A stretch of DNA of 64,000 nucleotides, taken from assembly GCA_019800895.1 (NCBI GenBank), contig JAHVKF010000002.1, forward strand, positions 496,001 through 560,000, written 5' to 3'. Position numbers and translations under genes: made by a program. This stretch comes from Halomonas denitrificans (GTDB lineage Bacteria; Pseudomonadota; Gammaproteobacteria; Xanthomonadales; Wenzhouxiangellaceae). The first letter of the stretch is position 1. Every line of letters begins with the position of its first letter. This document shows positions 1,585-44,220 of the stretch, piece by piece. The notes beneath the pieces were generated by a model. The model made no database searches, was not told the DNA's origin, and worked only from the letters and a program-made list of their open reading frames with translations.

Positions 1585-2495
1585 TGCCGGCCGGGTGTTT
1601 CGACCGGGTCCTCGACCGGCTGGCCGACGCCCTCGGTCGTTCACCGGGCCGTGCGCGAGAGCGCTTCGACCTCGAACCCCGCTCGAACGGCCCGTTCCAT
1701 CGCACCTTCCGGCTCCGGATCGATTCGGAGCGCTTCTTCGTCAAGCAGGCAGCCGGTGCGGCCGCCGACTCCCTCGCCGCCGAAGCCGACGGCCTCACGC
1801 GCCTGGCCGCGGTTGGCGCGGTTTCCGTGCCGGCGGTGCACGCGATCATCGGCGCCGACGACGACCTGGAGACCGCCTTGCTCGTGCTCGAGTGGCTGGA
1901 CCTGGGTCCCCTCCACGGCGCGGCGGCGGCGCAACTCGGCGAGCACCTGGCCGCTCTTCATCGCGACGGCATCGGCGAGCGCCACGGTCTCGATCGCGAC
2001 AACTGGATCGGCGCTACGCCGCAGGTCAATGCCCCGACCGCGGACTGGACGACGTTCCTGTTCGAGTGCCGGATCGGTCCGATGGTCGATCGCCTGGCCG
2101 ACGCCGGCAAGCGATTCGGGTCGGACACCCTGCCGCGTCTGCGAAACACCTGGAGCGCCGCGTTCGCCGACTATCGCCCCCTGCCGTCGCTGCTCCACGG
2201 CGACCTCTGGGCCGGCAACGCGGGTCAGGGGGCCGACGGTACGCCGGTGATCTTCGATCCGGCCGTCCATTACGGCGACCGTGAATGCGACCTGGCCATG
2301 GCGTCGCTGTTCGGCGGCTTCGACGCCTCGTTCTTCGAAAGCTACGAAGCGGCCTGGCCGCTCGACGCCGGCTGGGAATTCCGGCGCGGGTTCTACCAGC
2401 TCTACCACGTACTGAACCACGCCCTGCTGTTCGGCGGAGGCTACGTCGAGGAGGCCCGCCAGCGTATCGCCCACCTGCTCCGCGGCCGCTCCTGA
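1584..2495 (+). CDS. fructosamine kinase family protein
   Basis: A 303-residue aminoglycoside-phosphotransferase-fold kinase of the fructosamine/ketosamine-3-kinase family, which phosphorylates sugar adducts on proteins or amines so that they decompose (deglycation). Seen in the sequence: FHRTFRLRIDSERFFVKQ (nucleotide-binding Lys region), the catalytic LLHGDLWAGN loop near residue 210, and VIFDPAVHYGDRECDLAM, which carries the metal-binding Asp. The length matches the family (about 290-300). The start overlaps the stop of the CBS gene (TGATG). The true substrate is not proven by sequence. Confidence 0.85.
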   Translation: MPAGCFDRVLDRLADALGRSPGRARERFDLEPRSNGPFHRTFRLRIDSERFFVKQAAGAAADSLAAEADGLTRLAAVGAVSVPAVHAIIGADDDLETALLVLEWLDLGPLHGAAAAQLGEHLAALHRDGIGERHGLDRDNWIGATPQVNAPTADWTTFLFECRIGPMVDRLADAGKRFGSDTLPRLRNTWSAAFADYRPLPSLLHGDLWAGNAGQGADGTPVIFDPAVHYGDRECDLAMASLFGGFDASFFESYEAAWPLDAGWEFRRGFYQLYHVLNHALLFGGGYVEEARQRIAHLLRGRS

Positions 2496-2621
2496 ACGCG
2501 CGAAGAGCCGACCGCCTGCGCATGTAGGTGCCGGGTGGGATTCGCCTTCGCTCGAAGCGCTCGATTCGGCGTCTGGCGTGGCGTGGAGGGAACTGTTTGC
2601 GTGCTGCGGTATCCTAGAGTC

Positions 2622-3005
2622 ATGGTCCTGCACGCCCTTCGTCGCCGCTCGTCCCGCGTCAGCCGCGTTCTGGCGATGCTGTTCGTGGTGCTGTGGGCCG
2701 CTATCGTGGCCACGCCGTGCGTGATGGCGATGCAGGCCGAACCCGAGCCGCACGCGGCGCACGACTGCCCGCACTGCCCGCCGACGCCGTGCCACGAACC
2801 GGCCGCGCCGGCCGACTGCGACGAGACCGATCCCGCCGATCGGCTGCGCAGCGCCGATACCTCCCCGTTCGCGGTCGCCCTGCCGGGCGACGCCCCGGCC
2901 ACGCCTCCGGCGGGGTTCGCTGCTCGCTTGGCCCCGGCCGGCGCACACGCGCTGAGCCGGGACGGTCCGCGACCCCACCTGCTGCACGTCCGCTTCGACG
3001 AATAA
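2622..3005 (+). CDS. small exported Cys/His-rich protein heading the copper island
   Basis: A 127-residue protein. I start it at the ATG at 2622 because the frame opens further upstream (2535) without an export signal, whereas MVLHALRRRSSR followed by LAMLFVVLWAAIVATPCVMA looks like a signal peptide. The mature part carries HDCPHCPPTPCHEP, a compact Cys/His cluster suited to metal binding, followed by a Pro/Ala-rich tail. I do not recognise a named family. Small Cys/His proteins of this kind often precede Cus/Czc efflux genes, and here cusC follows after 71 bp. A role in periplasmic metal capture is inference. Confidence 0.6.
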   Translation: MVLHALRRRSSRVSRVLAMLFVVLWAAIVATPCVMAMQAEPEPHAAHDCPHCPPTPCHEPAAPADCDETDPADRLRSADTSPFAVALPGDAPATPPAGFAARLAPAGAHALSRDGPRPHLLHVRFDE

Positions 3006-3076
3006 CCGGTCTCCGCTAAACCCTGGATTGCCCGAGCGTGCGCACCGGGCGCGTTCCCGTTCTTTCGGAGATCACC

Positions 3077-4306
3077 ATGCGAACACTATCGATCCTGCTG
3101 CTGGTGCTGGCCGCCGAGGCCGCCCCCGCCCTTGATCTTACCGACGCCGAGCGCCTCGCGATCGACGCCGACCCCGAAGTCCAGGCCCTGGCCGCGCATG
3201 CGCGCGCCGCCGGCCTGGACGCCATCGCCGATGCCCAGTTGCCCGACCCGATGCTGGCCCTCGGAGCCACGGCGGTACCGCTGCCCGAACTCGACGTGAT
3301 CGACGAGCCGATGTCGCAGTTCCAGCTCGGGATCGAGCAGCGCGTGCCGCCGCGCTCGATGCGCAGCGCGAAAGCCCGGCGCGCCGAAAGCGAGGCCGAC
3401 GCGCTGGCCCTGCAGGCCGAGCGACGCGCGCTGGAGGTCCGGACCGCGGTCCGCCGGAGCTGGACCGAGACCGTTCGTCTCCAGCAACTGATCGACCTCA
3501 CGGAGCAGCGCGCCGAACTGCTGGATCGCTATGCCGAAGCGCTCGACGCCGGCCTGCAATCGGGGCGCGTCAGCCAGCAGGACCTGCTCGAAGGCCGCAG
3601 CCGGGCGATCCGGGTCCAGCGGCTGCTGGCCGACCTCCGTGCCCGGAAGGCCGAGCAGCGCGCCGCGCTCGCCGAACGGCTTCCCGGCACCGCGCTGCCG
3701 GCGCGATTGCCGCACGGCGAACTGCCGGTCCGCTTACCGGGCGAGGGCACGGCGCGGCCGGACCTGTCCGGCCATCCCGCCGTCCGCGCCGCGAACGCGC
3801 AACTGCTGACCGCCGAGGCCGGCATCGACCTGGCCGAAGCGGCCTTCGATCCGGGCTGGTCCTGGAACGTCGGCGTCGGGCGGAGGATCGGCGACACGCC
3901 GATGGGCGCGCCGAGCGAGACGATGCTGAACGCCCGCATCGCGATCGACCTCCCGCTGTTCACCGAACGCCGCCAATCGAAGCGCCTCGAAGCCGCGCAC
4001 GAGCGCTATCGCGCCGCTGCGGCAGGACCGGTCGAGGTTCGCCGGACCCTCGACGCGCGCCTGGCGTCGGCGCTTGCCACGGCGGAGGAGTACGCCGCCC
4101 TGGTCGACGTGTACGGCGACGAAGTGCTGCCGCCGGTGCGGGCCGCCGCCGAAGCGGCCCGGGACAAGTATCGGAACGGATCGATCCCGCTGGAAGCCGT
4201 CCTCGCCGCCGAGATCGAGGTGCTGGACGTTCGCAACGAACGGATCCAGGCCGAGCGCGAGCTCGATCGGGCCCGGATCGAACTCGCCTACCTGGGAGGC
4301 CTGTGA
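3077..4306 (+). CDS. TolC-family outer-membrane factor of heavy-metal efflux (CusC/CzcC-like)
   Basis: A 409-residue outer-membrane channel subunit of a tripartite RND pump. The ATG at 3077 is chosen because it follows CGGAG and opens a signal peptide (MRTLSILLLVLAAEAAPA). The mature protein is a long heptad-like helical protein with two OEP repeats (roughly residues 25-200 and 220-400), including ADAQLPDPMLALG near the start and KYRNGSIPLEAVLAAEIEVL near the end, both common in CzcC/CusC-type factors. It lacks a clear lipobox. Its stop overlaps the start region of the adaptor gene, giving the order outer-membrane factor, adaptor, RND permease. Confidence 0.85.
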   Translation: MRTLSILLLVLAAEAAPALDLTDAERLAIDADPEVQALAAHARAAGLDAIADAQLPDPMLALGATAVPLPELDVIDEPMSQFQLGIEQRVPPRSMRSAKARRAESEADALALQAERRALEVRTAVRRSWTETVRLQQLIDLTEQRAELLDRYAEALDAGLQSGRVSQQDLLEGRSRAIRVQRLLADLRARKAEQRAALAERLPGTALPARLPHGELPVRLPGEGTARPDLSGHPAVRAANAQLLTAEAGIDLAEAAFDPGWSWNVGVGRRIGDTPMGAPSETMLNARIAIDLPLFTERRQSKRLEAAHERYRAAAAGPVEVRRTLDARLASALATAEEYAALVDVYGDEVLPPVRAAAEAARDKYRNGSIPLEAVLAAEIEVLDVRNERIQAERELDRARIELAYLGGL

Positions 4307-5775
4307 TGGAACGCAAAACGACCCTGTTTGCACGCACCCTGCTCTGGGCGGCCCTGGCCGCGCTCGCTCCAGCGACCGCGCTTGCCCAGTCCACCGATGC
4401 CGACCCGGCGCCGCGCACCGCATCGGATCACGACGACATGCGCCACGCCGGAATGGATCATGGCGAAATGGACCACGCCGGAATGAACCATGGCGAAATG
4501 AGCCACGCCGGAATGGACCACTCGCAGATGGACCACTCGCAGATGGACCACTCGCAGATGGACCACTCGCAGATGGACCACTCGCAGATGGACCACTCGC
4601 AGATGGACCACTCGCAGATGGACCACTCGCAGATGGACCACTCGCGCGCGGAGCGCTCGAGCGCTCCGGACGGCGAACGCGAGATCGCCTACTGGGTCGC
4701 ACCGATGGACCCCTCCTATCGCCGCGATCGGCCGGGCAAGTCGCCGATGGGCATGGACCTGGTGCCGGTCTATGCCGACGAGCTCGAGCCGGCCGGGACG
4801 GTCCGGGTCGAACCCGGCGTCCAGCAGCAGATGAACCTGCGCACCGCCGAAGTGCGCGAGGGCCGGCTCTGGCGGCGCATCGACACGGTCGGCCGCGTGA
4901 CCTGGGACGCGGAGCGGCTGTCGCACGTCCACTCGCGGGTCGCCGGCTGGATCGGCGAGATCGGTGTCGAGGCGGCCGGTGAGCCGGTGGAAGCGGGCCA
5001 GCTCCTGTACACCCTGTATTCTCCGGAACTGGCGAACGCGCAGGACGAGCTGCTCCGCGCCCGCAACGGCGGCGCCGGCCTGGTCCGGAGTGCCCGCGCA
5101 CGGCTGCGCACGCTCGGCGTCCAGCCAGCGGTCATCGAGCGGATCGAGCAGGCCGGCCGGACGATCGAGTACCTGCCCTGGTACGCCGAGCGCTCGGGCG
5201 TGGTCAGCGCGCTGGGCGCCCGCGACGGCATGCGCGTGACGCCGGACCTCGAGCTGATGGAGATCGCGGCCGAGACGCCGGTCTGGGTGATCGCCGACGT
5301 GGCCGGTCGCCAGGTCGACTGGCTGGCCGACGACCAGGTCGCGGAGATCACGACCGCGTACCGGCCCGGCGAGACCTTCCGCAGCCGGATCGACTACCTG
5401 TACCCCGAGCTCGACCCCGCCACCCGGACCCAGCGCGTGCGCCTGCCGGTCGCGATCGACTCGCCGCGGCTGAAGCCCGGCATGTGGGTCGACGTGCGAA
5501 TCTTCGCCGGACCCGTCGACGGAAACGTCTTCATCCCCCGCGAGGCGTTGATCCGTACCGGAACGCAGGAGCGGGTGATCGTCCGCAGCGGCGACGAGAC
5601 CTTCGAAGTCCGCGAGGTGACCTCCGGCATGGAAAGCGGCGAGTTCGTCGCGATCCTGGCCGGGCTCCGGCCCGGCGAGACCGTCGTCACCTCGGGCCAG
5701 TTCCTGCTCGATTCCGAGGCCAACGTCGCCGCGGACGGCGCACGCATGGAGGGCAGCGGCCATGCCCACCACTGA
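4306..5775 (+). CDS. cusB: RND efflux periplasmic adaptor (CusB-like) with His/Met repeat
   Basis: About 489 residues; a membrane-fusion protein joining the inner-membrane pump to the outer-membrane channel. Order: signal peptide (to about residue 28), an unusual run of M-x-H-x-x pentapeptides (about residues 45-114), a degenerate heavy-metal-binding segment (WVAPMDPSYRR...SPMGMDLVPVY), then barrel-sandwich, beta-barrel and membrane-proximal domains ending in RPGETVVTSGQFLLDSEA. GTG at 4303 and ATG at 4306 are both possible starts; GGGAGG at 4294-4299 favours the ATG. In E. coli CusB, N-terminal methionines receive Cu/Ag, so the Met/His array is well placed for metal capture. Confidence 0.88.
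   Translation: MERKTTLFARTLLWAALAALAPATALAQSTDADPAPRTASDHDDMRHAGMDHGEMDHAGMNHGEMSHAGMDHSQMDHSQMDHSQMDHSQMDHSQMDHSQMDHSQMDHSQMDHSRAERSSAPDGEREIAYWVAPMDPSYRRDRPGKSPMGMDLVPVYADELEPAGTVRVEPGVQQQMNLRTAEVREGRLWRRIDTVGRVTWDAERLSHVHSRVAGWIGEIGVEAAGEPVEAGQLLYTLYSPELANAQDELLRARNGGAGLVRSARARLRTLGVQPAVIERIEQAGRTIEYLPWYAERSGVVSALGARDGMRVTPDLELMEIAAETPVWVIADVAGRQVDWLADDQVAEITTAYRPGETFRSRIDYLYPELDPATRTQRVRLPVAIDSPRLKPGMWVDVRIFAGPVDGNVFIPREALIRTGTQERVIVRSGDETFEVREVTSGMESGEFVAILAGLRPGETVVTSGQFLLDSEANVAADGARMEGSGHAHH
4438..4647 (+). repeat. 15-bp tandem repeat encoding M-x-H-x-x pentapeptides
   Basis: Fourteen consecutive 15-bp units inside the adaptor gene. The first five are diverged (MRHAG, MDHGE, MDHAG, MNHGE, MSHAG). 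The next eight (4513-4632) are identical at the DNA level and encode MDHSQ, and one MDHSR unit closes the run. Identity of the eight at the nucleotide level, including third codon positions, points to recent expansion by slippage or unequal recombination, while the frame and the Met and His positions stay intact. Confidence 0.95.
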
Positions 5776-5802
5776 TCGAACGCGAACGAACGGAGGCCGG
5801 TC

Positions 5803-8800
5803 ATGATCGACGCCGTGATCCGCGCCTCGATCGCGAACCGGGGCCTCGTCGTGCTGCTCGCGCTGCTGCTGTTCGGCGCCGGCCTGTACGCCCTGCGCGC
5901 CACGCCGATCGACGCGATCCCCGACCTGTCCGATCCGCAGGTGATCGTCCGCGCACCGTATCCCGGCCAGGCACCCCAGGTGGTCGAGAACCAGGTCACC
6001 TATCCGCTGACCACCGCGCTGATGGCCGTCCCGGGGGCGCACACGGTGCGCGGTTTCTCGATGTTCGGCGACGCGTTCATCACCATCCTGTTCGAGGAAG
6101 GCACCGATCCCTACTGGGCGCGGGCCCGGGTACTCGAGTACCTCAGCCAGGTCTCGGGCCGCCTGCCGGACGGGGTGCGCGCCGCCCTCGGCCCCGACGC
6201 GACCGGCGTCGGCTGGGTCTACAAGTACGTGCTGGTCGACCGCTCCGGCACCAACGACCTGGCCCGGCTGCGCGCACTGCAGGACTGGTTCCTGAAGTTC
6301 GAACTGCAGGCCGTGCCGGGGGTGTCCGAAGTCGCGACCATGGGCGGCCAGGTCCGCGGCTATCAGGTCGTGCCGGACCCGCATCGGATGCGCGCCCTCG
6401 GCCTCGATCTGGGCCGGCTGAGGCAGGCTATCCAGGCCAACAACGCCGAGACCGGCGGCTCGCTGCTGGAGCTCGCCGAGGCCGAATACATGGTCCGCGC
6501 CGACGGCTACCTTCAGTCGCTCGACGACCTGCGGGCCGTACCGACCGGGCTCGTCGCCGACGGCACGCCGGTGCTGCTCGGCGACGTCGCCGAGATCCGG
6601 CGCGGGCCGGTCGCGCGGCGCGGCGTGATCGATCTCGACGGCGAAGGGGAAGTCGTCGGAGGCATCGTCGTGATGCGCCAGGGCGAGAACGCCCGCGCGG
6701 TGATCGACGCGGTCAAGGCCCGGCTGGCCGAATTGCAGGGCAGCCTGCCGGAGGGGGTCGAGATCGTCGAGACCTACGATCGCTCCGGTCTGATCGATGC
6801 GGCGGTCGCCACCCTGTGGTCGAAGCTGATCGGCGAGTTCGTCGTCGTGGTGCTGATCATCGGCCTGTTCCTGTGGCACTTCCGCTCGTCGCTGGTGGTG
6901 CTGGTCTCGCTGCCGCTCGGCGTGCTGGCGGCCTTCGTGGTCATGCACCTGCAGGGCATCAACGCCAACATCATGTCCCTCGGCGGCATCGCGATCTCGA
7001 TCGGCGTGATGGTCGACGCGGCGATCGTGCTGATCGAGAACGTCCACCGGCACTTCGAGCGGGCCGGCCAGGATCTGCGAGGCGAGGACCGCTGGCGCGT
7101 GGTCGAGCGCGCGACGCTCGAGGTCGGTCGGCCGATCTTCTTCACGCTGCTGCTGGTCGCGCTGTCGTTCCTGCCGGTCTTCGCCTTGCAGGCGCAGGAA
7201 GGGCGGCTCTTCGCGCCGCTGGCCTTCACCAAGACCTATGCCATGGCCGCGGCTGCCGGGCTGGCGATCACGCTGGTTCCGGTGCTGGCCGGCTATTTCA
7301 TCCGCGGCCGGCTGCGGGGCCGCGACGGCAACCCGGTCGCGCGCGGCCTGAAGGCCCTGTATCGACCGATCGTCCGCTTCTCGGTCCGCCACCCGGTGGC
7401 GGTCGTGGTTGCCGGCCTGCTGCTCGGCCTGTCCGCGCTGTTCCCGTATTCGCGCATCGGCAACGAGTTCATGCCGACGCTCGACGAAGGCAGCCTGATG
7501 TACATGCCGACCACGCTGCCGGGCCTGAGCCCCGGCGAGGCCCGCGAACTGCTCCAGCAGACCGATCGCATCATCGCCTCGCACCCCGAGGTGGCGCGCG
7601 TGATGGGCAAGATCGGCCGCGCCGATACCGCGACCGACCCGGCGCCGCTGACGATGGTCGAGACCTTCATCACGCTGAAGCCCCGCGACCAGTGGCGGCC
7701 CGGCGTGACCACCGCCGACATCCGTCGCGAGCTCGACGAAATGGTCGACTTCCCCGGCCTGACCAACGCCTTCGTGTTCCCGATCCAGACCCGGATCGAC
7801 ATGCTGCAGACCGGCATCCAGACCGACGTCGGCATCCTGGTCACCGGCGAGGATCTCGGCACGATCCAGCAGCTGACGACCCGGATCGCCGAGGTCGTCG
7901 AACCGCTGCCCGGCACGGCCAGCGCCTTCGCCGAGCGGCCGGCGGGCGGGCGCTACGTGACGCTCTCGCTCGACCGGACCGCAATCGCCCGCTACGGGCT
8001 GACGGTCGCCGAGGTCCACGACGTCGTCCGCTTCGGCATCGGCGGCGCCTCCGTCACCGAGACGGTCGAAGGGCTCGAACGCTTCCCGGTCACGCTGCGG
8101 CTGCCGGCCGACTGGCGCGATTCACCGCAGCGGCTGGTCGACCTGCCGCTGCAGACGCCGGTCGGCGCAACGGTGACGCTGGGCCAGGTCGCGCGGGTCA
8201 CGATCGACGACGGTCCGCCGCGGATCCGGACCGAGAACACGCGGCCGGCCGGACTGGTGCTGATCGAGGTCGCGGGCGTCGATCTCGGCAGTTGGGTCGA
8301 GCGCGCACGCGAGGTGCTGACGAGCGAAGTCGAGTTCCCGCCCGGCTATGCCTTCGCGATCCGCGGCCAGTACGAGTACCTGGAGCGGGCGTCGGAACGG
8401 CTGGCACTGATGGTGCCGGTCACGCTGGCGATCATCGTCATCCTGCTGATGCTGACCTTCAGTCGCTTCGCCGACGTCGCGCTGGTGCTCCTGGTCGCGC
8501 CGCTGTCCCTGGCCGGCGGCCTGTGGCTGATGTGGCTGCTCGGCTACAACCTGTCGGTCGGCGTGGCGGTCGGCTTCATCGCCCTGGCGGGCCTGGCCGC
8601 CGAGGTCTGCGTGCTGATGGTCGTCTATCTGAACCAGGCCGTGGACGCCAGCGACATGGACCACGTTCAAGGCGCAACGCTCGACGACGCGATCGTCGAA
8701 GGCGCGGTTCGCCGCGTCCGTCCGATCACGATGACCCAGGCCACCGTTTTCCTGGGCCTGTTGCCGGTGATGCTGACCAGCGGCATCGGCTCGGAGGTCA

Positions 8801-34658: not shown

Positions 34659-36026
34659 TCAGCGCTGCCCGACCGCCTTCTCGTACAAGCCGGGGAAGCG
34701 GCCCCCGGCGTCGCACTCCCGCTTCAGGGCGTCGTAGGCCTCGCGATCGTGGATGTCCCAGAACGTGGCTTCGTCGTAGGTGCTGCGCGAGTACAGGCTC
34801 TTCCTGCCACCGTGCTTCGCGACCAGGGTCTCGACACGTGCGTTGTAGAAGCCGTCGGGTTCGCGAGAGCGGACCATGTCCCAGAAGCCGAAGTTGACGT
34901 AGGCCGTGTCGGTGCGAAGAGGGAACAGCGAGAAGTCGTCGTTCGGAGCACCGTCGTTCGGCACGTCGCCCTTCGGCACGACGAACGGGCAGATCCAGAC
35001 GGGACGAATGCCGATTTCGGCCTCGAAGTCGGCAAGGAACGCCGCGGCGTTGCCGATCGGGATGTCGACGTCCTGGATCACCGACTCGGTGCGTGGACGA
35101 AGGCGGGAAACGAGCGACAGCGGAAAGCGGTGGCTGGCCCGCATGATCCTCTGGTAGGTCACGCTGTTCAGCCGCTTGCGGCCGAGCAACAGCCGGACCG
35201 GCGCAAGGTGGGCACCCACGTTCCGGCTGCACCAGAACCAGTCCGTATCCCATCGCCACAGGTAGTCGTGGACGGTCAGCAGGTCTTTGCGCCGCGACCG
35301 CAGGCTCTTCCAGTACGGCTTCATCCACGTGTAGTCGCTGGGCGACGCCCCGGCCGGCGGCGCCTCGACGAAGCGCGCGCGGCTCAGCACGAAGTCCCCG
35401 GGGCCGAAATACACCCCCTCGAGATAGTCGCAGGTGGGCGTTGCGCACTCCCGTCCGATCGCTTCGAACAGACGATCGGGGTCGTCGAACTTTTCGTAGT
35501 CCAGCTGCACGAAGGGCCGGACCGGGATCAGGTCGAGCCGGACCCGCGTCGCGTAGCCCAGGCTGCCGTAGGAATTCGGGAAGCCGCGGAACAGCTCGTC
35601 TCGCTGGTCGGGCCCGCAGGTCAGCACCCGGCCGTCGGCGACCAGCACGTCGATCTCGCGCACCGTATGGTGGACCAGGCCGAAACGGAACGCGCTGGAC
35701 TCGATGCCAACGCCCGTGACCGCACCGCCGACCGTGATGCTCTTCAGCTCCGGCACGATCGCCGGCGCGAGTCCGTGCGGCAGCGTGGCGTCGACCAGGT
35801 CGGCGTAGGTCGTCATGCCCTCGACCTCGGCGGTCCGCTCGTCGGGATCGACCGCCAGGACGTGGTTCAGGGACCCCACGTCGAGCGCCGTGAACTCGCC
35901 ATCCTCGCGCGTCCGGAACAGGTTGCTGGTGCGCTTCTTCAGGCGCACCGGGTCGGACGACCCTGCGAGCGCGTCGGCCAGCGCGGCGACGCGCGCCCGA
36001 TGGCGGCTGAGGTCCCGGTCGCTCAA
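34659..36026 (-). CDS. FAD-linked oxidoreductase (DWARF1/TmsA-like), TTG start
   Basis: A 455-residue flavoprotein of the VAO/PCMH superfamily. The N-terminal FAD domain reads SLNHVLAVDPDERTAEVEG, TTYADLVDATLP and KSITVGGAVTGVGIESSAFR, and the C-terminus resembles the DIMINUTO/DWARF1 sterol-reductase group (YLEGVYFGPGDFVL). There is no good ATG; I choose TTG at 36026, which overlaps the stop of the upstream gene as TTGA. Relatives next to methyltransferases in actinobacteria (TmsA/BfaA) reduce a methylene-fatty-acid intermediate to a methyl branch. Translation coupling to a Cfa-like gene makes that role plausible, but unproven. Confidence 0.8.
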   Translation of the reverse strand: MSDRDLSRHRARVAALADALAGSSDPVRLKKRTSNLFRTREDGEFTALDVGSLNHVLAVDPDERTAEVEGMTTYADLVDATLPHGLAPAIVPELKSITVGGAVTGVGIESSAFRFGLVHHTVREIDVLVADGRVLTCGPDQRDELFRGFPNSYGSLGYATRVRLDLIPVRPFVQLDYEKFDDPDRLFEAIGRECATPTCDYLEGVYFGPGDFVLSRARFVEAPPAGASPSDYTWMKPYWKSLRSRRKDLLTVHDYLWRWDTDWFWCSRNVGAHLAPVRLLLGRKRLNSVTYQRIMRASHRFPLSLVSRLRPRTESVIQDVDIPIGNAAAFLADFEAEIGIRPVWICPFVVPKGDVPNDGAPNDDFSLFPLRTDTAYVNFGFWDMVRSREPDGFYNARVETLVAKHGGRKSLYSRSTYDEATFWDIHDREAYDALKRECDAGGRFPGLYEKAVGQR

Positions 36027-37165
36027 CGGACCGGCACGTAGCGGGCGATGTCGCCGTGGCTGAGCACCAGCTGCCAGAGCTGCAGGCCGCGCGCGCGAAA
36101 GGCCCCGGCGCAGCTGTACAGGTAGTAGCGCCACATCCGGTCGAAGCGTTCGTCCAGCCCTTCGCTCACCTTCAGTTCGGGCCACGCGTCGACGTAGTTC
36201 GCCGCCCAGCCCATCAGCGTCCGGTCGTAGTCCGGGCCGAAGTTGTGCCAGTCCTCGAGGACCAGCAGACCTTCCTTGGCGCGGGTCAGCTGGGCCTCGG
36301 ACGGGATCACGCCGCCAGGGAAGATGTACTTGCTGATCCAGCGGTCGGCGGACCGGCGGCTGACGTTGCCGCCGATCGTGTGGACCAGCGCCAGCCCCTC
36401 GGGCTTCATGCAGTGCCGGACCAGGTCGAAGAAGCCCCGGTAGTTCTTCGGCCCGACGTGCTCCATCAGGCCGACGCTCACCACGCGATCGAAGGTCTCG
36501 CCGGCGCGGGCCGCATCGCGGTAGTCCCGTCGGCGGATTTCGACCGGCAGGCCCTCGCAGCGCGCCCGGCCGAACTCGACCTGGCGCCGGCTGATGTTGT
36601 AGCTGACCACCTCGCAACCGCGATCGGCGGCCAGGTAGCGAGCCAGCTCGCCGAAGCCGCCGCCGAGTTCGAGCACGCGCATGCCGGCCTCGAGGTGGAG
36701 CTTGTCGGCGACCAGTCGAAGCTTGGCCCGCTGGGCATCGTCGAGGGAAAGTGCTGCGCTGTCGCGGTCCGGCGCACTGCCGTAGTAGGCGCAGGTGTAC
36801 TGCATCGTCGGGCCGAGCATCGCCTCGTACAGCCGGTTCGACAGGTCGTAGTGCTGCTCGGCGACGCGCCGCGAGCGGCGGCGGCTCTGCAGGTTGCCGA
36901 TCCGGCCGAGCACCACGTGCACCAGCAGCGACGGCGTGCGCAGCGATCGATCGGCGCCGACGGAGATCAGGCGAGCGAAGAAGCCGTCGAGGCGCTCGGC
37001 GTCCCACCAGCCGTCCATGTAGGCCTCGCCGGCGCCGAGCGTGCCTTCGGCCAGCACCCGCTTGAACAGACGGTCGTCGTGGACCCGGAGGTCCCAGGGC
37101 CGGTCGCCGCCGATCTCGATGTCGGCGGCGCGAAGCAGGCGTTCGACGGTCTGGCGTGCGGACAT
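36023..37165 (-). CDS. cfa: cyclopropane-fatty-acid synthase family SAM methyltransferase
   Basis: A 380-residue enzyme, close in length and sequence to E. coli Cfa (382). It keeps LFKRVLAEGTLGAGEAYMDG, MQYTCAYY (C125, equal to C139), EHVGPKNY (E235), HTIGG (H262), NFGPDYD (Y313) and a C-terminal AGAFRARGLQLWQ. The SAM loop is VLELGGGFGE rather than the usual VLDIGCGWG. It transfers a methylene group from SAM to a phospholipid double bond, giving a cyclopropane or, with a reducing partner, a methyl branch. ATG 37165 is chosen; the frame extends upstream without family similarity. Confidence 0.88.
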   Translation of the reverse strand: MSARQTVERLLRAADIEIGGDRPWDLRVHDDRLFKRVLAEGTLGAGEAYMDGWWDAERLDGFFARLISVGADRSLRTPSLLVHVVLGRIGNLQSRRRSRRVAEQHYDLSNRLYEAMLGPTMQYTCAYYGSAPDRDSAALSLDDAQRAKLRLVADKLHLEAGMRVLELGGGFGELARYLAADRGCEVVSYNISRRQVEFGRARCEGLPVEIRRRDYRDAARAGETFDRVVSVGLMEHVGPKNYRGFFDLVRHCMKPEGLALVHTIGGNVSRRSADRWISKYIFPGGVIPSEAQLTRAKEGLLVLEDWHNFGPDYDRTLMGWAANYVDAWPELKVSEGLDERFDRMWRYYLYSCAGAFRARGLQLWQLVLSHGDIARYVPVR

Positions 37166-37536
37166 GACGACGTGGAGGCTCCCGATCGCGACCGGCCGCG
37201 CGACATGCCGGCGTCGCCGGCGGCTCGGTGAGGAGCACAGTAAACGGCCGGTCTCGCCGAGGTCAAGACCGGGTCCGCACTCGAACAAACGAAGAGTTCC
37301 GGCCCCTGCCCGAGCGCGCCGCGGCAGGCGGCTCGAGGATCGGTCCCGTCCGGAACGCGCCCGCTGCCGACCCCGCGTGCGTCCTCGCTGATACGAAATG
37401 CCGGACGGGCCCGCTTACACAGGCGAGTCGAACAGAAAACCGTCGAGCGGGTGCGCCGGCCGGGAACGATCGGCCGGATCGGCCACGAAGATTCCGTGGC
37501 GCACACACCACGACGTCACGACAGCCGAGGAATCCG
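37166..37536. other. divergent intergenic region, no gene seen
   Basis: The 371 bp between the cfa start and the giant Rhs gene hold no supported frame. Short palindromes (GCCGGCGTCGCCGGC near 37208, GGCCGGGAACGATCGGCC near 37465) are visible. Promoters for both directions should lie here, but no strong -35/-10 pair stands out. Confidence 0.5.
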
Positions 37537-40500
37537 ATGACCGAATCCAGAACCCGTGTGGCCGCGATGGCGCTGCTCATCGTCCTGACCACCGCCCTGA
37601 CCACGGCCCTGACCACCGTGGCCACCCTTGCAGAAGCCGGCGCAGTCCGTGGCGACCCCTCCGACCTGCTGTTCACCGACTCCTTCGAGTCGCCGATTTC
37701 GGACATGCGGCTCGCGAAGTCCGCGTCGGTCGATGAGATCGAGGTCGAGCAGGCCTTCCAGTACGTACTGAGCGTCGACAACCTCGGGCCGGACGACGCG
37801 ACCGACCTGGACCTGGCGGACACGCTCCCGGCCGGGGTCGACGTCACCGCGCTTGCCGCCGACGCCCCGCTCCTGTGTTCGTCCGGCCCCGGGACCGTGA
37901 CCTGCACCGCCGACGTGCTTCCGCTCGGGTCCTACACGGTGACCATCGACGTGGTCGCGCCCGACACCGCCGGCGCGATCGTGAACTCGGCCACCCTGAG
38001 CGTGAGCAGCGCGGACCCCAGCCCGGTCGGCACGGTCAGCGACGGCGGCGTCCAGGTGCTGTCGCCCCCGCCGCCGGGCGAGGGTCCCCAGGTGCTGCCA
38101 CCGCCCGTGCACCCGGGGCAGATCAGCCCCGTACGCGACACCGCCGCGAGCTGGACCACCGGGAGCAATCCGCCGCAGACCGGCGTGACGCCGGGGGCGC
38201 TGGACGAGCGCCGGGCGAGCCTGCGCACCGGTCGGGTCGTCGATCGTGCCGGCGCGCCGATCGAGGGCGTCGTGGTCCGGGCGCTGAATGCACCGGATCT
38301 CGGCCAGACGCAGACCGACGCGAACGGCTACTACACGTTCGCGTTCAACGCCGGCGGCGCCACGGTCCTCGACTTCCAGTCACCGGACCGCCTGCCCGTC
38401 CAGCGCCGGTTCACCAGCGCGTGGAACGAATGGGGCCGGCTCGAGGACATCGTGATGACCGGCATCGACGTGGCGTCCCAGACCACGTCGCCGGTGCCGG
38501 GAGCCGGGCACTGGCACGACGCATCGACCGAAACCGACAGCGACGGCAGCCGGACCGGTCGGCTCTACCTGCGGCCGGGCACGGAACTCGCCGCACGCCT
38601 TCCCGACGATTCGCTCGTCCCGCTCGGCGGAACCCTGAATCTCTCGGTGACCGAATACACGGTCGGCCCGAGCGGTCCCGCTGCCATGCCGGGCCTGCTC
38701 CCGGACTCCTCCGGCTACACCTACGCCGCCGAAGTCCGCGTCGCCGAAGCCGAGGCCCTCGGCGCCGCGCGCGTGGAGCTCAGCGTCCCGGCCGTCCTGT
38801 ATCTCGACGACTTCATCGGTTTCGGCCCCGGGGCACCCGTGCCGGTCGGCGTCTACGACCGACAGATCGGCGCCTGGCGGGCGAGCGAGAACGGCTTTGT
38901 CCTGACCGTGCTCGGCATCAATGGAGGCGAGGCCGAGATCGACCTGACCGGCGACGGCCTGCCGGCCTCGCCCGCCGAACTCGACGCGGTCGGGATCGAT
39001 GCGGGCGAGCGTACGCAGCTCGCCGACCTGGTCGTCGCCGACTACGCCGGCGGGCCGGTCGACCTCTGGCGCGCCGAACTGCCGCATTTTTCGCCATGGG
39101 ATCTGAACTGGCCGCTCGGCCCGCCGGACGACGCCGTCCCGCCGCCGTCCCTGTCGCCCGATCGGCCGGCCGACAACACGACGCCCGATCCCGACCCACC
39201 GACGGACCCCGGCTTCGGCCGCATCGTGATCGAGACCCGGGCCCTGATCGAGCAGGTGCCGATTGCCGGTACGCCCTTCCAGCTGGTCCATTCCAGCCGG
39301 CGCCAGCCCGGCCGGGTCGCGGTGGTCGACGTACCGGTCATCGGCGAGGGCGTGCCCGCCGGCCTGCTGTCCGCGCGCGTCGAACTGAACGTGGCCGGCC
39401 GCCGCCTGGTCGCCGAGTTCGACGGTGCGGACCTGACCGCCGGCTTGCGCGCGGAGCTGGTCTGGGACGGCAAGGACGTGTTCGGCCGTTCGCTGAACGG
39501 CGCCCAGCCGGCCACCGTGTCCGTGACCTACCGCTACCCCGGCCGCTTCGGCTTCGGCCCCGCGGGTCGAAGCTTCGGCCTGCCGGCGGTGGAGGAACCT
39601 CCGTTCTTCGTCAGCGCGCGGCGACCGGCCGAACTGACGACGGACACCCGCTTGACGGTCGATGCCGGCGGCGTCGATGCCGCCGGCGTCGGCCTGGGCG
39701 GTTGGGTGCTCGATGCCCACCACGCCTACGATCCGGTCGCGGGCGTGCTGGAGCGCGGCGACGGCCAGGTCCGCCGGGTCCCGCCGTCGGGCCGCACCGT
39801 GTCCTTCGTCGCCGGCTGCGACCCGGCGATCGGCCCCTGCGAGCAGGATACGAGCGCCGCGCAGGCGCTGTTCTCCGACGCGCGGCTGTTCGCCGTCGGT
39901 CCCGACGGCGCGATCTACGTCGCCGATTCCGGGGGAACGATCGGCGCGCGCCGGGTCCGGCGCATCGACCCGCTGACCGGCACGGTCGAGACGGTCGCCG
40001 GACGGCTCGACGGCCCCGGCGGCGGCGTGCCGGGGTGCACGGGGCCGACCGACCCCTGCGGCGACGGCGGTGCGGCCACCGATGCCTGGATGGAACTCAC
40101 CGCCCTCGTGATCGCGCCGGACGGCGCCCTGCTGCTGGGCGACGCCGGCGTGACCAACCGAATCCGCCGGGTCGATCCGGCCACCGGGGTCATCGAGTCG
40201 ATCGTGGGCAACGGGCAGGTCTGCCCCCAGGACCAGCCCTGCGGCGACGGGGGGCCCGCGACGCAGGCGGCCCTGGGTGGCGAGCTGGTCAAGGGCGAGC
40301 TGTTCTCCGCGATCCGCTTCGGCGTGGCCGCCGATGGAACCCTGTTCCTCGAACACGGCTTCGGCAACCGCATTCGACGCGTCGGTCCGGACGGCACGAT
40401 CCACACCGTGCTCGGCGTCCAGGCGCCGGGCTGGACGAACGACTGCAGCGTCGTCATCATCCCGAGCGCGCCGGGCGGCCGAACGATCGACCTGGAGGCG

Positions 40501-43500
40501 GTCCGCGAGTGCCCGGGCATCTTCGAGTCCAGCAACGACCTGGTCGTGACGCCGGAAGGTGCGGTGATCTGGACCACGGAGAACGCCAACGTCGAGTACG
40601 GCGTCGTCCGATTGAGCCCGCTCGGCGAGCTGACCATCGTGGCGGGCTTCGGCAGCGGCTACATCGGCGCCCCCGGCGCCGGTCTCGGCGACGGCGGCAT
40701 CGCCGTGAGCGCGCCGATGAACTTCGGTGGACCGGTCCTCGCTCCCGACGGATCCATCCTGGTCGGTGCCGTGCCCAACTGGCAGGGCGCCGGCCGCGTG
40801 CGCCGGATCACCCCGGACGGACTCATCGGCAGCGTCATCGGCTACGGCGGCAACGGCCCCGCCGGCATCGAGCTCGGCGGCGTCGCGCTGATCCAGCCGC
40901 TGGTGGACGGCTTCGCCCTCCCCGCAGTGGCGCCGGACGGCACGGTCCACCTGCTGGTCAAGCTGCCCGGCGGCACCGACAGCTACCGGGTCGTCCGCCT
41001 CGATCCGCCGCTGCCGGGCCTCGGCCTGGGCCAGGGCGAGCTCGCCGTGGCCGACCCGACCGGTCGGCTGCTCGACGTCTTCGACCAGCGCGGCCGGCAT
41101 CTCCGCGTGGTGTCGGCGCTGACGGGCGAAACGCTTCGAAGCTTCGTCCACAACGCCGAAGGACGCCTCGACTCGGTCGTCGACCACACGTCGGCAGGCA
41201 CCACGCTCGTCACCCGGGTCGAGCGTGACGCCGGCGGCGCACCGTCGGCCATCGTCGGGCCGTACGGACACCGCACCGAGCTCGCCGTCGACGGCAACGG
41301 CCACCTGTCGGCGATCACCGACCCGGACGGCGCGACGACGACGGTCGTGGCACGCGCGGACGGGCTGCTCCAGTCGATCACCGGGCCGCGGACGGGCGTC
41401 GATCCGGCGGTCGATACGACCTACAGCTTCGCCTGGACCGCCACCGGTGAACTCGCGTCGGCCACGGATCCGATCGGCGGCGTGACCTCGCTGACGCGCA
41501 CTGTCGACAACGGGGTCACGCGAACGACGCGGACCGGGCCCGACGGCCTGAGCACCGAGATCGCCCGCCAGGGCCTCTTCGGCGGGGCCGTTCGCCGGAC
41601 CGCCCTGGACGCCATGGGCAACACCACCGTGGTCGAGGAGCTCGCCGACGGCCGCCAGCGCCGGATCGACGCGGACGGAACGATCACGACCTGGCGCCTG
41701 GCGCCGGACCCGCGCTTCGGCATGAGTGCACCGGTCGTCGAGCGCGTCGAGACCGACACCCCGGATCCCGGTCGCGATCCCCTGATCGCCACCAGCACGC
41801 GCGAAGTCGCGCTGGACGCCGGCGGCGACCTGCAGAGCCAGACCGAAACCGTGACCGTCGGCGAAGGCCCCGCGGCGCGGACCACGGTCTCGACCTTCGA
41901 TGCAGCGCTGCGAACCTGGACCGTATCGACGCCGACCGGTCGGACCAGCAGCCGCACGCTGGATGCCTGGGCCCGCGAGATCGCCGTCGAGCGGCGTTCG
42001 GATGCGCCCGTGACCTGGATCCGCGATGGCGAAGGACGCATCACCGCGCAGACCCGCGGCGCGGGCCCGAACGCTCGCACCACCACCTTCACCTACGACG
42101 GCCCTTACGCGGTCGCCTGGACGGATGCCGTCGGCCGCACCACGACCGTGACACGCGACGCGCACGGACGGGTGCTGTCGATCACCCGACCGGACGGCGA
42201 AATCGAAGTCACCGATCGCGACGCCCATGGCAACCTGGTCACGGTGGTCGCCCCCGACGCCGTGGTCGACAAGACCCACCTCCAGGACTTCGATCCGCGC
42301 GACGAGCTGGTTGCCTACGGCGACCCGGATGGCGGCACCACGGTCTTCAGCCGCTCTCCACGCGGCCATGTCGACGGCGTGGACCGGCCCGACGGGACCC
42401 TGCTGGACTTCCTGCTGACGGCCGGCCGCCTCGATGCGCGCCAGCAGCCCGGCCTGGGCGCCGTGTCGTGGAGCTACACCGGCTCGCGGCTGTCCGGCGG
42501 CACCGCAGATGCCATCAGCGCGCTGGCCTGGGACGGCCGCTTGCTGGTCAGCGAGGCCTGGACCGACCTGTTCGCCGCCGGCGACGGACAGGCGACCGTC
42601 ACGCGCGAGTACGACGAGACCTTCCGGCCGATCGGGGAGACGATCGACGGCGTGACCGTCGCGTTCGCCTACGACGGGGACGACCTGCTCGTGCAGGCCG
42701 GCGCTCAATCCATCGTCCGCGATCCGCAGACCGGCCTGGCGCTCTCGCGCACCGTCGATGACGTGACCGTCTCCCACGATTACGACGACTTCGGCGCGCT
42801 GGTCGGTGTGACCGCGACGCACGACACGCTGGGCATCCTGTACGACCTGGTCGTGGCCCGCGACGATGTCGGTCGGGTGATCCAGCGCATCGAGACGATC
42901 GACGGCCAGACCACGACCTGGGACTACGCCTACGACGCGATCGGCCGCCTGGCCGAGGTCGTCGAGACCCCGTCGGGCCAGGCGGCCCGGCTGCGGACCT
43001 ACCAGTACGACGAGAACGGCAACCTGGTCGTCGGCCCGGCCGGGATCGCGACCTCGACCGCGGGCGATCGCCTGCTCGGTTACGGGGGGCGCGTGTTCCA
43101 CCACGACGCGGCCGGCGACCTCGAGTCGATCGACGCCGGCGGTGCGGTCACGCTGTTCGACTACGACGCCGCGGGTCGACTGCTCGGCGTCGATCTGCCC
43201 GACGGCACGGACATCGACTACCGTCACGACGCCGCCGATCGCCGCGTCGCGCGGATCGTCGACGGGGTCGCCGAGGCCGGCTGGATCTACGGCCCGGGAC
43301 CGTCACCGGTCGCGCGGCTCGATCCGGCCGACGATTCGGTCGTCACCCGCTTCGTCTACGGCGAGAAGGCGGCGACGCCCGACTACCTGGTCCACCAGGG
43401 GGTCCGGCACATCGTGGTCTGGGACGAGCGGGGCACACCGCGACTGGTCGTCGACAGCCTCACCGGCACGATCGTCGAACGTCTGGATACGGACGAACTG

Positions 43501-44220
43501 GGCGCGGCCGTCGGCACCTCGCCGTGGACCCTCGTGCCCCTCGGCTATCGCGGCGGTCTGCTCGAGCCGGCAACCGGGCTGGTGCGCTTCGGCGCGCGCG
43601 ACTACGACCCGAGCCTCGGGCGCTTCACCACGCGCGATCCGATCCTGTTCCGCGGCGGCCAGACCAATCTCTACCTGTTCGCTGCCGGCGACCCGGTGAA
43701 CCTCGCCGATCCGACCGGCTTCGGGCCGGCGTCCGGAGGCGGCGGCGGAGAACCGCCCGCATGTTCCGGTGACGGTCCTTCGACGGAAGGCCGCGGCCTG
43801 GCCGCCAGCGGCGCGCTCGGTCCGGTCGGCGTCGGCGCCAGCGCGGGAATCGCCGGCGACGGCACGCGGCCGGCTCTCCAGATCAACTTCAGCGCGGGCG
43901 TCGGCCCGTCGAGCGTCGGGCAGGTGTTCGCCGGCACCTACTACAGCGAAACGCAGGGCGAACTCTCCTCCGGCCTGGGCTTCAGCGACTCCATCGGCGC
44001 GACCGGCGCCTACTTCGTCGGCGGCGGCCTCGAGCGCACCGTCGACACCGCCGGCAACACGGGCACGGTGTCCTATTCCGGTGTCGGCATGGGCGCGGAG
44101 GCGCACCTGAACGTCAATGCCACGATCACCGTCACCGGGCCGGAGTACGACCCCCAGCCCGGACTGCAGAGCGACATTGCCGCCGGGGGCTTCCACGTGC
44201 CGGGAGGCTGCAAGCTCTGA
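37537..44220 (+). CDS. giant exported Rhs/YD-repeat protein with DUF11 and NHL propeller
   Basis: A 2227-residue protein. Order: signal peptide with a repeated LTTALTT stretch; LLFTDSFES (about 47-55); DUF11 (about 60-160); Pro-rich linker; carboxypeptidase-regulatory-like domain (GRVVDRAGAPIEGVVVRAL); a second beta region with DPPTDPGFGR linker; an NHL/SMP-like beta-propeller (about 750-1150) with repeated IYVADSGG/VRRIDP loops; YD/RHS repeats (about 1150-2000); and the Rhs core (FGARDYDPSLGRFTTRDP to NLYLFAAGDPVNLADPTG, about 2005-2061). The last 165 residues are Gly/Ser-rich and beta-like, not a recognised toxin. The layout recalls teneurins and wall-associated WapA. No immunity gene follows. 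ATG 37537 begins the signal. Confidence 0.9.
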   Translation: MTESRTRVAAMALLIVLTTALTTALTTVATLAEAGAVRGDPSDLLFTDSFESPISDMRLAKSASVDEIEVEQAFQYVLSVDNLGPDDATDLDLADTLPAGVDVTALAADAPLLCSSGPGTVTCTADVLPLGSYTVTIDVVAPDTAGAIVNSATLSVSSADPSPVGTVSDGGVQVLSPPPPGEGPQVLPPPVHPGQISPVRDTAASWTTGSNPPQTGVTPGALDERRASLRTGRVVDRAGAPIEGVVVRALNAPDLGQTQTDANGYYTFAFNAGGATVLDFQSPDRLPVQRRFTSAWNEWGRLEDIVMTGIDVASQTTSPVPGAGHWHDASTETDSDGSRTGRLYLRPGTELAARLPDDSLVPLGGTLNLSVTEYTVGPSGPAAMPGLLPDSSGYTYAAEVRVAEAEALGAARVELSVPAVLYLDDFIGFGPGAPVPVGVYDRQIGAWRASENGFVLTVLGINGGEAEIDLTGDGLPASPAELDAVGIDAGERTQLADLVVADYAGGPVDLWRAELPHFSPWDLNWPLGPPDDAVPPPSLSPDRPADNTTPDPDPPTDPGFGRIVIETRALIEQVPIAGTPFQLVHSSRRQPGRVAVVDVPVIGEGVPAGLLSARVELNVAGRRLVAEFDGADLTAGLRAELVWDGKDVFGRSLNGAQPATVSVTYRYPGRFGFGPAGRSFGLPAVEEPPFFVSARRPAELTTDTRLTVDAGGVDAAGVGLGGWVLDAHHAYDPVAGVLERGDGQVRRVPPSGRTVSFVAGCDPAIGPCEQDTSAAQALFSDARLFAVGPDGAIYVADSGGTIGARRVRRIDPLTGTVETVAGRLDGPGGGVPGCTGPTDPCGDGGAATDAWMELTALVIAPDGALLLGDAGVTNRIRRVDPATGVIESIVGNGQVCPQDQPCGDGGPATQAALGGELVKGELFSAIRFGVAADGTLFLEHGFGNRIRRVGPDGTIHTVLGVQAPGWTNDCSVVIIPSAPGGRTIDLEAVRECPGIFESSNDLVVTPEGAVIWTTENANVEYGVVRLSPLGELTIVAGFGSGYIGAPGAGLGDGGIAVSAPMNFGGPVLAPDGSILVGAVPNWQGAGRVRRITPDGLIGSVIGYGGNGPAGIELGGVALIQPLVDGFALPAVAPDGTVHLLVKLPGGTDSYRVVRLDPPLPGLGLGQGELAVADPTGRLLDVFDQRGRHLRVVSALTGETLRSFVHNAEGRLDSVVDHTSAGTTLVTRVERDAGGAPSAIVGPYGHRTELAVDGNGHLSAITDPDGATTTVVARADGLLQSITGPRTGVDPAVDTTYSFAWTATGELASATDPIGGVTSLTRTVDNGVTRTTRTGPDGLSTEIARQGLFGGAVRRTALDAMGNTTVVEELADGRQRRIDADGTITTWRLAPDPRFGMSAPVVERVETDTPDPGRDPLIATSTREVALDAGGDLQSQTETVTVGEGPAARTTVSTFDAALRTWTVSTPTGRTSSRTLDAWAREIAVERRSDAPVTWIRDGEGRITAQTRGAGPNARTTTFTYDGPYAVAWTDAVGRTTTVTRDAHGRVLSITRPDGEIEVTDRDAHGNLVTVVAPDAVVDKTHLQDFDPRDELVAYGDPDGGTTVFSRSPRGHVDGVDRPDGTLLDFLLTAGRLDARQQPGLGAVSWSYTGSRLSGGTADAISALAWDGRLLVSEAWTDLFAAGDGQATVTREYDETFRPIGETIDGVTVAFAYDGDDLLVQAGAQSIVRDPQTGLALSRTVDDVTVSHDYDDFGALVGVTATHDTLGILYDLVVARDDVGRVIQRIETIDGQTTTWDYAYDAIGRLAEVVETPSGQAARLRTYQYDENGNLVVGPAGIATSTAGDRLLGYGGRVFHHDAAGDLESIDAGGAVTLFDYDAAGRLLGVDLPDGTDIDYRHDAADRRVARIVDGVAEAGWIYGPGPSPVARLDPADDSVVTRFVYGEKAATPDYLVHQGVRHIVVWDERGTPRLVVDSLTGTIVERLDTDELGAAVGTSPWTLVPLGYRGGLLEPATGLVRFGARDYDPSLGRFTTRDPILFRGGQTNLYLFAAGDPVNLADPTGFGPASGGGGGEPPACSGDGPSTEGRGLAASGALGPVGVGASAGIAGDGTRPALQINFSAGVGPSSVGQVFAGTYYSETQGELSSGLGFSDSIGATGAYFVGGGLERTVDTAGNTGTVSYSGVGMGAEAHLNVNATITVTGPEYDPQPGLQSDIAAGGFHVPGGCKL

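Follow-up and report, generated by a model that had tools for sequence, protein, structure and literature searches.

A methyltransferase of the Cfa lineage coupled to a BfaA-family flavoprotein: a candidate route to mid-chain methyl-branched fatty acids

What would a methyltransferase of the cyclopropane fatty acid synthase (Cfa) type make when its gene is joined to that of an FAD-dependent oxidoreductase? The question is raised by two overlapping genes in a stretch of 64,000 nucleotides from Halomonas denitrificans (the window). Two pathways to 10-methyl fatty acids are described in the literature, bfa and tmp, each with a methyltransferase of its own and with reductases that are unrelated to each other (PMC7791843). 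A methyltransferase of the Cfa lineage joined to a reductase of the BfaA type is not described in the bfa and tmp literature that was found, and this combination most likely constitutes a third architecture beside these two. In lipid profiling, 10-methyl-C16:0 is taken to mark sulfate reducers and actinobacteria; a third source in halophilic and soil bacteria would therefore matter for how such profiles are read. The pair may also account for reports of 10-methyl lipids from certain soda-lake bacteria.

The gene pair and its flavoprotein

The first gene (36023..37165, minus strand) begins with ATG and encodes P0001 (METHYLTRANSFERASE), a Cfa-type SAM-dependent acyl-lipid methyltransferase of 380 amino acids. 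The second (34659..36026, minus strand) begins with TTG and encodes P0002, an FAD oxidoreductase of the BfaA/TmsA family. The two share four bases, TTGA (36023..36026, minus strand), such that the TTG start of P0002 lies on the TGA stop of P0001; both this overlap and the length of 455 residues for the FAD enzyme had been reported in the first-pass annotation and were found in the sequence. Comparison of the junction in 30 pair-bearing relatives revealed ATGA, GTGA or TTGA in approximately half of them, while in the remainder the FAD gene mostly starts a few bases past the methyltransferase stop. Because an overlap or a near-adjacent start recurs across these 30 relatives, the coupling of the two genes is conserved and not a chance event. 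No third gene conserved with the pair was seen across nine relatives. A consensus scan detected no promoter 5' of P0001; by eye, the upstream region (37166..37290, minus strand) contains TTGACC-N16-TTTACT, possibly a weak promoter of the pair. Divergent from the pair is a seemingly unrelated, Rhs/YD-repeat-like open reading frame of 2330 amino acids (37228-44220, plus strand). The genome that holds the pair is 3.2 Mb in size, and the named organisms closest to it are Wenzhouxiangellaceae.

FAD_binding_4 (PF01565) is the single Pfam domain of P0002, and the "DWARF1-like" label initially given to the protein appears to derive only from this shared domain. A fold search with the model of P0002 returned no DHCR24 structure, a result that bears on the label in neither direction. 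Over its full length, P0002 is 43-50% identical to the product of the FAD gene in actinobacterial FAD-methyltransferase operons, and FAD proteins of Amycolatopsis, Prauserella, Nonomuraea, Acrocarpospora and Planotetraspora are among its closest sequence relatives. In these actinobacteria, the FAD gene lies directly 5' of a gene for a methyltransferase of the Cfa superfamily, which is the bfaAB arrangement; the FAD gene came first in 17 of 17 actinobacterial loci, and the same arrangement was found in Nonomuraea gerenzanensis and on a Prescottella plasmid. Amycolatopsis orientalis is included in a published listing of bfaAB operons (PMC5660069). On its sequence, P0002 is thus assigned to the BfaA (TmsA) family, a membership that rests on these actinobacterial operons and not on experimentally tested BfaA sequences. 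BfaA has been demonstrated by experiment to reduce 10-methylene chains to 10-methyl chains with NADPH (PMC7791843; PMC5660069). The plasmid, from Prescottella sp. R16, carries two divergent gene pairs of the bfaA/bfaB type, and the match to one of its FAD genes is split over two reading frames, as a frameshift would cause.

The predicted model of P0002 (pLDDT 88) adopts a fold known from DprE1, L-galactonolactone dehydrogenase (GALDH) and cytokinin dehydrogenase (CKX); the structural matches have Z scores of 26-29, span about 360 residues and are 13-20% identical in sequence. Most of the solved enzymes with such a fold act as oxidases or dehydrogenases, and Thioalkalivibrio versutus contains 1.7-3.9% 10-Me-C16:1 delta-9 (PMC8092127), as might be expected if P0002 were an oxidase or isomerase and the product of the pair an unsaturated or further oxidized methyl-branched acid (10-methyl-9-ene or similar). 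However, experiments on BfaA, a member of the same family, identify it as a reductase that depends on NADPH, and saturated 10-Me-C16:0 predominates in T. versutus at 30 C; an oxidative or isomerizing role for P0002 is hence regarded as very unlikely, and reduction is the preferred function.

A Cfa-type methyltransferase with an altered dyad

The whole of P0001 is covered by a PF02353 match of 237.5 bits, and the protein scores 495.5 bits against NF008686, the NCBI equivalog model for E. coli-type Cfa, for which the curated cut-off is 400 bits. With E. coli Cfa it shares 48% identity, and its predicted structure (mean pLDDT 77, with a weak N-terminal domain) is best matched by 6bqc, the E. coli enzyme. 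Alignment located equivalents of E. coli C139, E239, H266, I268 and Y317 in P0001, which bears out an initial claim that all key residues of a Cfa are present, and the same five were found in 30 of 30 BfaA-paired relatives. Cut-off, residues and identity all favor the main rival to a methyl-branching pathway, namely that P0001 is a conventional cyclopropane fatty acid synthase, as the name of the NCBI model states, and that P0002 is otherwise engaged (in chain oxidation, for example) or acts on another lipid. Against this, a TmpB-type methyltransferase (L134) also passes NF008686, at 567 bits, though the products of enzymes from tmpBA operons are 10-methylene acids.

The first-pass annotation had also singled out the SAM-binding loop, in which GGGFGE replaces GCGWGG. 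The replacement is real: P0001 has ELGGGFGE (residues 166-173; codons 36647..36670, minus strand) where E. coli Cfa has DIGCGWGG. This loop is, however, restricted to the Wenzhouxiangella/Thioalkalivibrio group and, in part, to Acidobacteria. The more distant BfaA-paired enzymes retain GCGWGG, and consequently GGGFGE was rejected as a functional marker and does not hold as a diagnostic feature. In paralogs of the CMAS type that lie outside the pair in Wenzhouxiangella and Thioalkalivibrio (L001, L174-L179, L188, L189), Ser mostly occupies the position of C139 and Gln that of H266; part of the Cfa bicarbonate site is therefore missing there.

The Met-Phe dyad that adjoins the catalytic Glu, absent from P0001, is a better marker than the SAM loop. 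The dyad is formed by the two residues that precede the bicarbonate-binding Glu, as in M237-F238-E239 of E. coli Cfa; at the equivalent positions, P0001 has Leu233-Met234 (LM; codons 36464..36469, minus strand). Among 64 stand-alone Cfas that were aligned, MF is found in 57, ML in six and SF in one, and the solved cyclopropane synthases 6bqc, 5z9o and 7qos all have MFEH. MF was found in none of 50 sampled methyltransferases paired with a reductase, comprising 22 Cfa-type enzymes beside BfaA (LM, LL, LC, IC or VC), six enzymes beside TmpA (IM or IL) and 22 of the BfaB type, of which 16 are proteobacterial (VL, TL, CL or ML) and six actinobacterial (LT). BfaB-type and TmpB enzymes (the latter of the tmpBA operon) are known from experiment to make 10-methylene acids (PMC7791843).

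The pattern was first noticed in gammaproteobacteria and Desulfobacterota, and the Acidobacteriota sampled afterwards agreed with it, with IM in two of two TmpA-paired enzymes and, among the stand-alone ones, MF in six and SF in one. Three independent pairs were available for the comparison, and all showed the same direction of change at F238 (sign test, p 0.25); with few independent origins, the relation between dyad and pairing is an association and not proof. The lack of MF in P0001 nevertheless counts against plain cyclopropane synthesis.

Distribution and descent of the pair

Relatives of P0002 at 70-77% identity were found in seven of the eight Wenzhouxiangellaceae genomes sampled, in none of the other 53 sampled genomes of the order and in eight of 30 Thioalkalivibrio genomes. 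All of these relatives adjoin a Cfa-type methyltransferase; carriers of the pair include Wenzhouxiangella sediminis and Thioalkalivibrio strains AKL19 and ALE14. In strain AKL19 (L026, L027) and in genome G348, the whole pair is present twice. More distant pairs, with methyltransferases 48-57% identical to P0001, occur in Acidobacteria, Nitrospirae, Syntrophaceae, one deltaproteobacterial metagenome-assembled genome (MAG), and MAGs labeled Woesearchaeota and Magasanikbacteria. The last two, with archaeal (L053) and CPR (L060) labels, respectively, are of approximately 0.9-1.0 Mb, and the presence of the pair there may reflect either horizontal transfer or a mis-binned contig. In many other proteobacteria, the partner of the BfaA-type protein is a methyltransferase of the BfaB type, which shares about 30-35% identity with P0001 and is encoded first. 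As BfaA genes are found next to either Cfa-type or BfaB-type enzymes, one reductase family has two methyltransferase lineages as partners. The two-gene unit has probably spread horizontally.

In phylogenetic trees of the methyltransferases, the BfaA-paired Cfa-type enzymes group together (support 96 and 93). The stand-alone Cfas that gammaproteobacteria, Desulfobacterota and Acidobacteria contain lie outside this group, and the BfaB-type enzymes are distant from it. That P0001 is closer to classic Cfa had been proposed from the outset, and the trees agree: it groups with E. coli-type Cfa and not with BfaB, a starred branch lying between that group and the BfaB clade. In one tree, rooted on the BfaB-type rows, the BfaA-paired Cfa-type enzymes form two adjacent branches, and their placement relative to the stand-alone Cfas varies with the columns and rows used. 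A derivation of the cyclopropane synthases from BfaA-paired Cfas was considered and discarded; the basal paraphyly that would imply it was lost on re-analysis without the dyad columns and with more rows, and no such claim is made. Across the several phyla sampled, the P0001 clade was found only beside BfaA-type genes, a further point against an ordinary cyclopropane synthase. The best trees place the TmpA-paired methyltransferases apart from the BfaA-paired ones and thereby favor convergent change of the dyad in the two groups, while one joint clade, and with it a single origin, is not rejected (AU p 0.20).

It is tentatively proposed, as somewhat less than an even prospect, that the MF dyad acts as a switch between cyclopropane and 10-methylene formation in the Cfa family, and that the P0001 lineage arose when an E. 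coli-type Cfa was separately converted to methylene formation, acquired a BfaA reductase as its partner and was then passed between phyla together with it. If so, many "cyclopropane synthase" annotations would belong to methyl-branching enzymes. The dyad offers a directly testable rule for separating methyl-branching enzymes from cyclopropane synthases, a distinction that current annotation does not make.

Proposed pathway and its relation to known systems

The pair quite probably encodes a two-step pathway to mid-chain methyl-branched fatty acids in membrane phospholipids. The substrates, products, electron donor and order of reactions that we infer are as follows. P0001 would methylate the cis double bond of an acyl chain, and the resulting cation would lose a proton to leave an exo-methylene group (10-methylene), without closure of a cyclopropane ring; P0002, translated from the overlapping start, would then reduce the 10-methylene to a saturated 10-methyl group with NADPH. 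By analogy, the pathway most likely works as does actinobacterial bfa, with the methyltransferase drawn from the Cfa lineage instead. The central idea of the first-pass annotation, a methylate-then-reduce pair resembling TmsB/TmsA (BfaB/BfaA), is thereby retained as a prediction, with a Cfa-type P0001 and a BfaA-family P0002; of the products that it had listed, methyl-branched acids are favored, cyclopropane acids are disfavored, and furan acids are unsupported at the pair, the UfaD and UfaO families being different. As the sole PF07977 protein of the host genome reads as FabZ (L252, G000:C4:45003-45398), with FabA apparently absent, and as a desaturase gene lies in another cluster, the double bond is probably introduced by an aerobic desaturase.

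A natural phenotype is on record for Thioalkalivibrio. At 30 C, T. versutus AL2 contains 19.3% 10-Me-C16:0 and some 12-methyl-C18:0 together with 38% of a C19 cyclopropane acid, whereas T. nitratis ALJ2 has cyclopropane acid and no methyl-branched acids; no gene was assigned to the 10-Me-C16:0 of T. versutus in that study (PMC8092127). A TmpA-like gene was found in one of 30 Thioalkalivibrio genomes, compared to the eight with the pair, and the pair may be considered a candidate source of this acid in T. versutus. Thioalkalivibrio genomes with the pair also carry a separate Cfa of the MFEH type (L172, L173), which fits one enzyme per product and again argues against cyclopropane synthesis by the paired enzyme. 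Taken with its dyad and its exclusive pairing, ordinary cyclopropane synthesis by P0001 is judged unlikely. The literature that was searched yielded no fatty acid data for Wenzhouxiangella.

The pair was compared with four known systems, the first of which, ufaM/ufaD/ufaO, also brings together a methyltransferase acting on phospholipid acyl chains and a flavoenzyme. This neighborhood (PMC7380195) is what would suggest a furan fatty acid, or an intermediate of one, as the product of the pair. However, the flavoenzyme families differ; UfaD is similar to phytoene desaturase-like enzymes, while UfaO belongs to DUF1365 (PMC7380195), and genes of neither type, DUF1365 included, are present at the pair or among its direct neighbors. 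Moreover, genes for an amine oxidase, a DUF1365 protein and CMAS are clustered on another contig of the host genome, and a furan product from this locus was discarded as highly improbable. That cluster, on contig C3 (L251, G000:C3:767000-780000, at approximately 1957-7866), encodes a fatty acid desaturase, an amine oxidase (UfaD-like), a DUF1365 protein (UfaO-like), a CMAS, a DUF2878 protein and a second CMAS; from its gene content, it is likely the furan fatty acid locus of the same genome.

With E. coli-type Cfa (NF008686), P0001 has sequence family, fold and catalytic residues in common. It differs in having LM rather than MF before the catalytic Glu and Asn in place of T197, and its clade is always beside a BfaA-type gene.

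The tmpBA operons of Desulfobacter, Marinobacter and Thiohalospira resemble the pair in that the methyltransferase comes first and a 10-methyl C16 product is expected. Operons of this kind, in which a geranylgeranyl-reductase-like gene comes directly after the methyltransferase gene, were detected in one genome of the gammaproteobacteria, three of the Desulfobacterota and two of the Acidobacteriota; their methyltransferase is of the Cfa type and likewise has an altered dyad, GIMEHVG compared to GLMEHVG in P0001. The partner, however, is the geranylgeranyl-reductase-like TmpA and not a BfaA-type PF01565 protein, and on this ground a reading of the pair as tmpBA was rejected. Neither in E. coli nor in yeast did the tmp reductase show activity (PMC7791843). 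In Thioalkalivibrio genome G355 (L239), a CMAS gene whose product is only 36% identical to P0001 precedes a TmpA-like gene; the two resemble a tmp pair whose methyltransferase is of a third kind.

The closest resemblance in the reductase is to bfaAB (tmsAB) of actinobacteria, in which a BfaA-family FAD protein is likewise encoded beside a methyltransferase of the Cfa superfamily, in several cases with a 4-base overlap as in the pair, and for which the same methylate-then-reduce chemistry is expected. The order of the genes is reversed, with bfaA preceding bfaB in actinobacteria and the methyltransferase first in the pair, and the methyltransferase of the pair, about 32% identical to BfaB-type enzymes, belongs to the lineage of E. 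coli Cfa, not to the BfaB clade.
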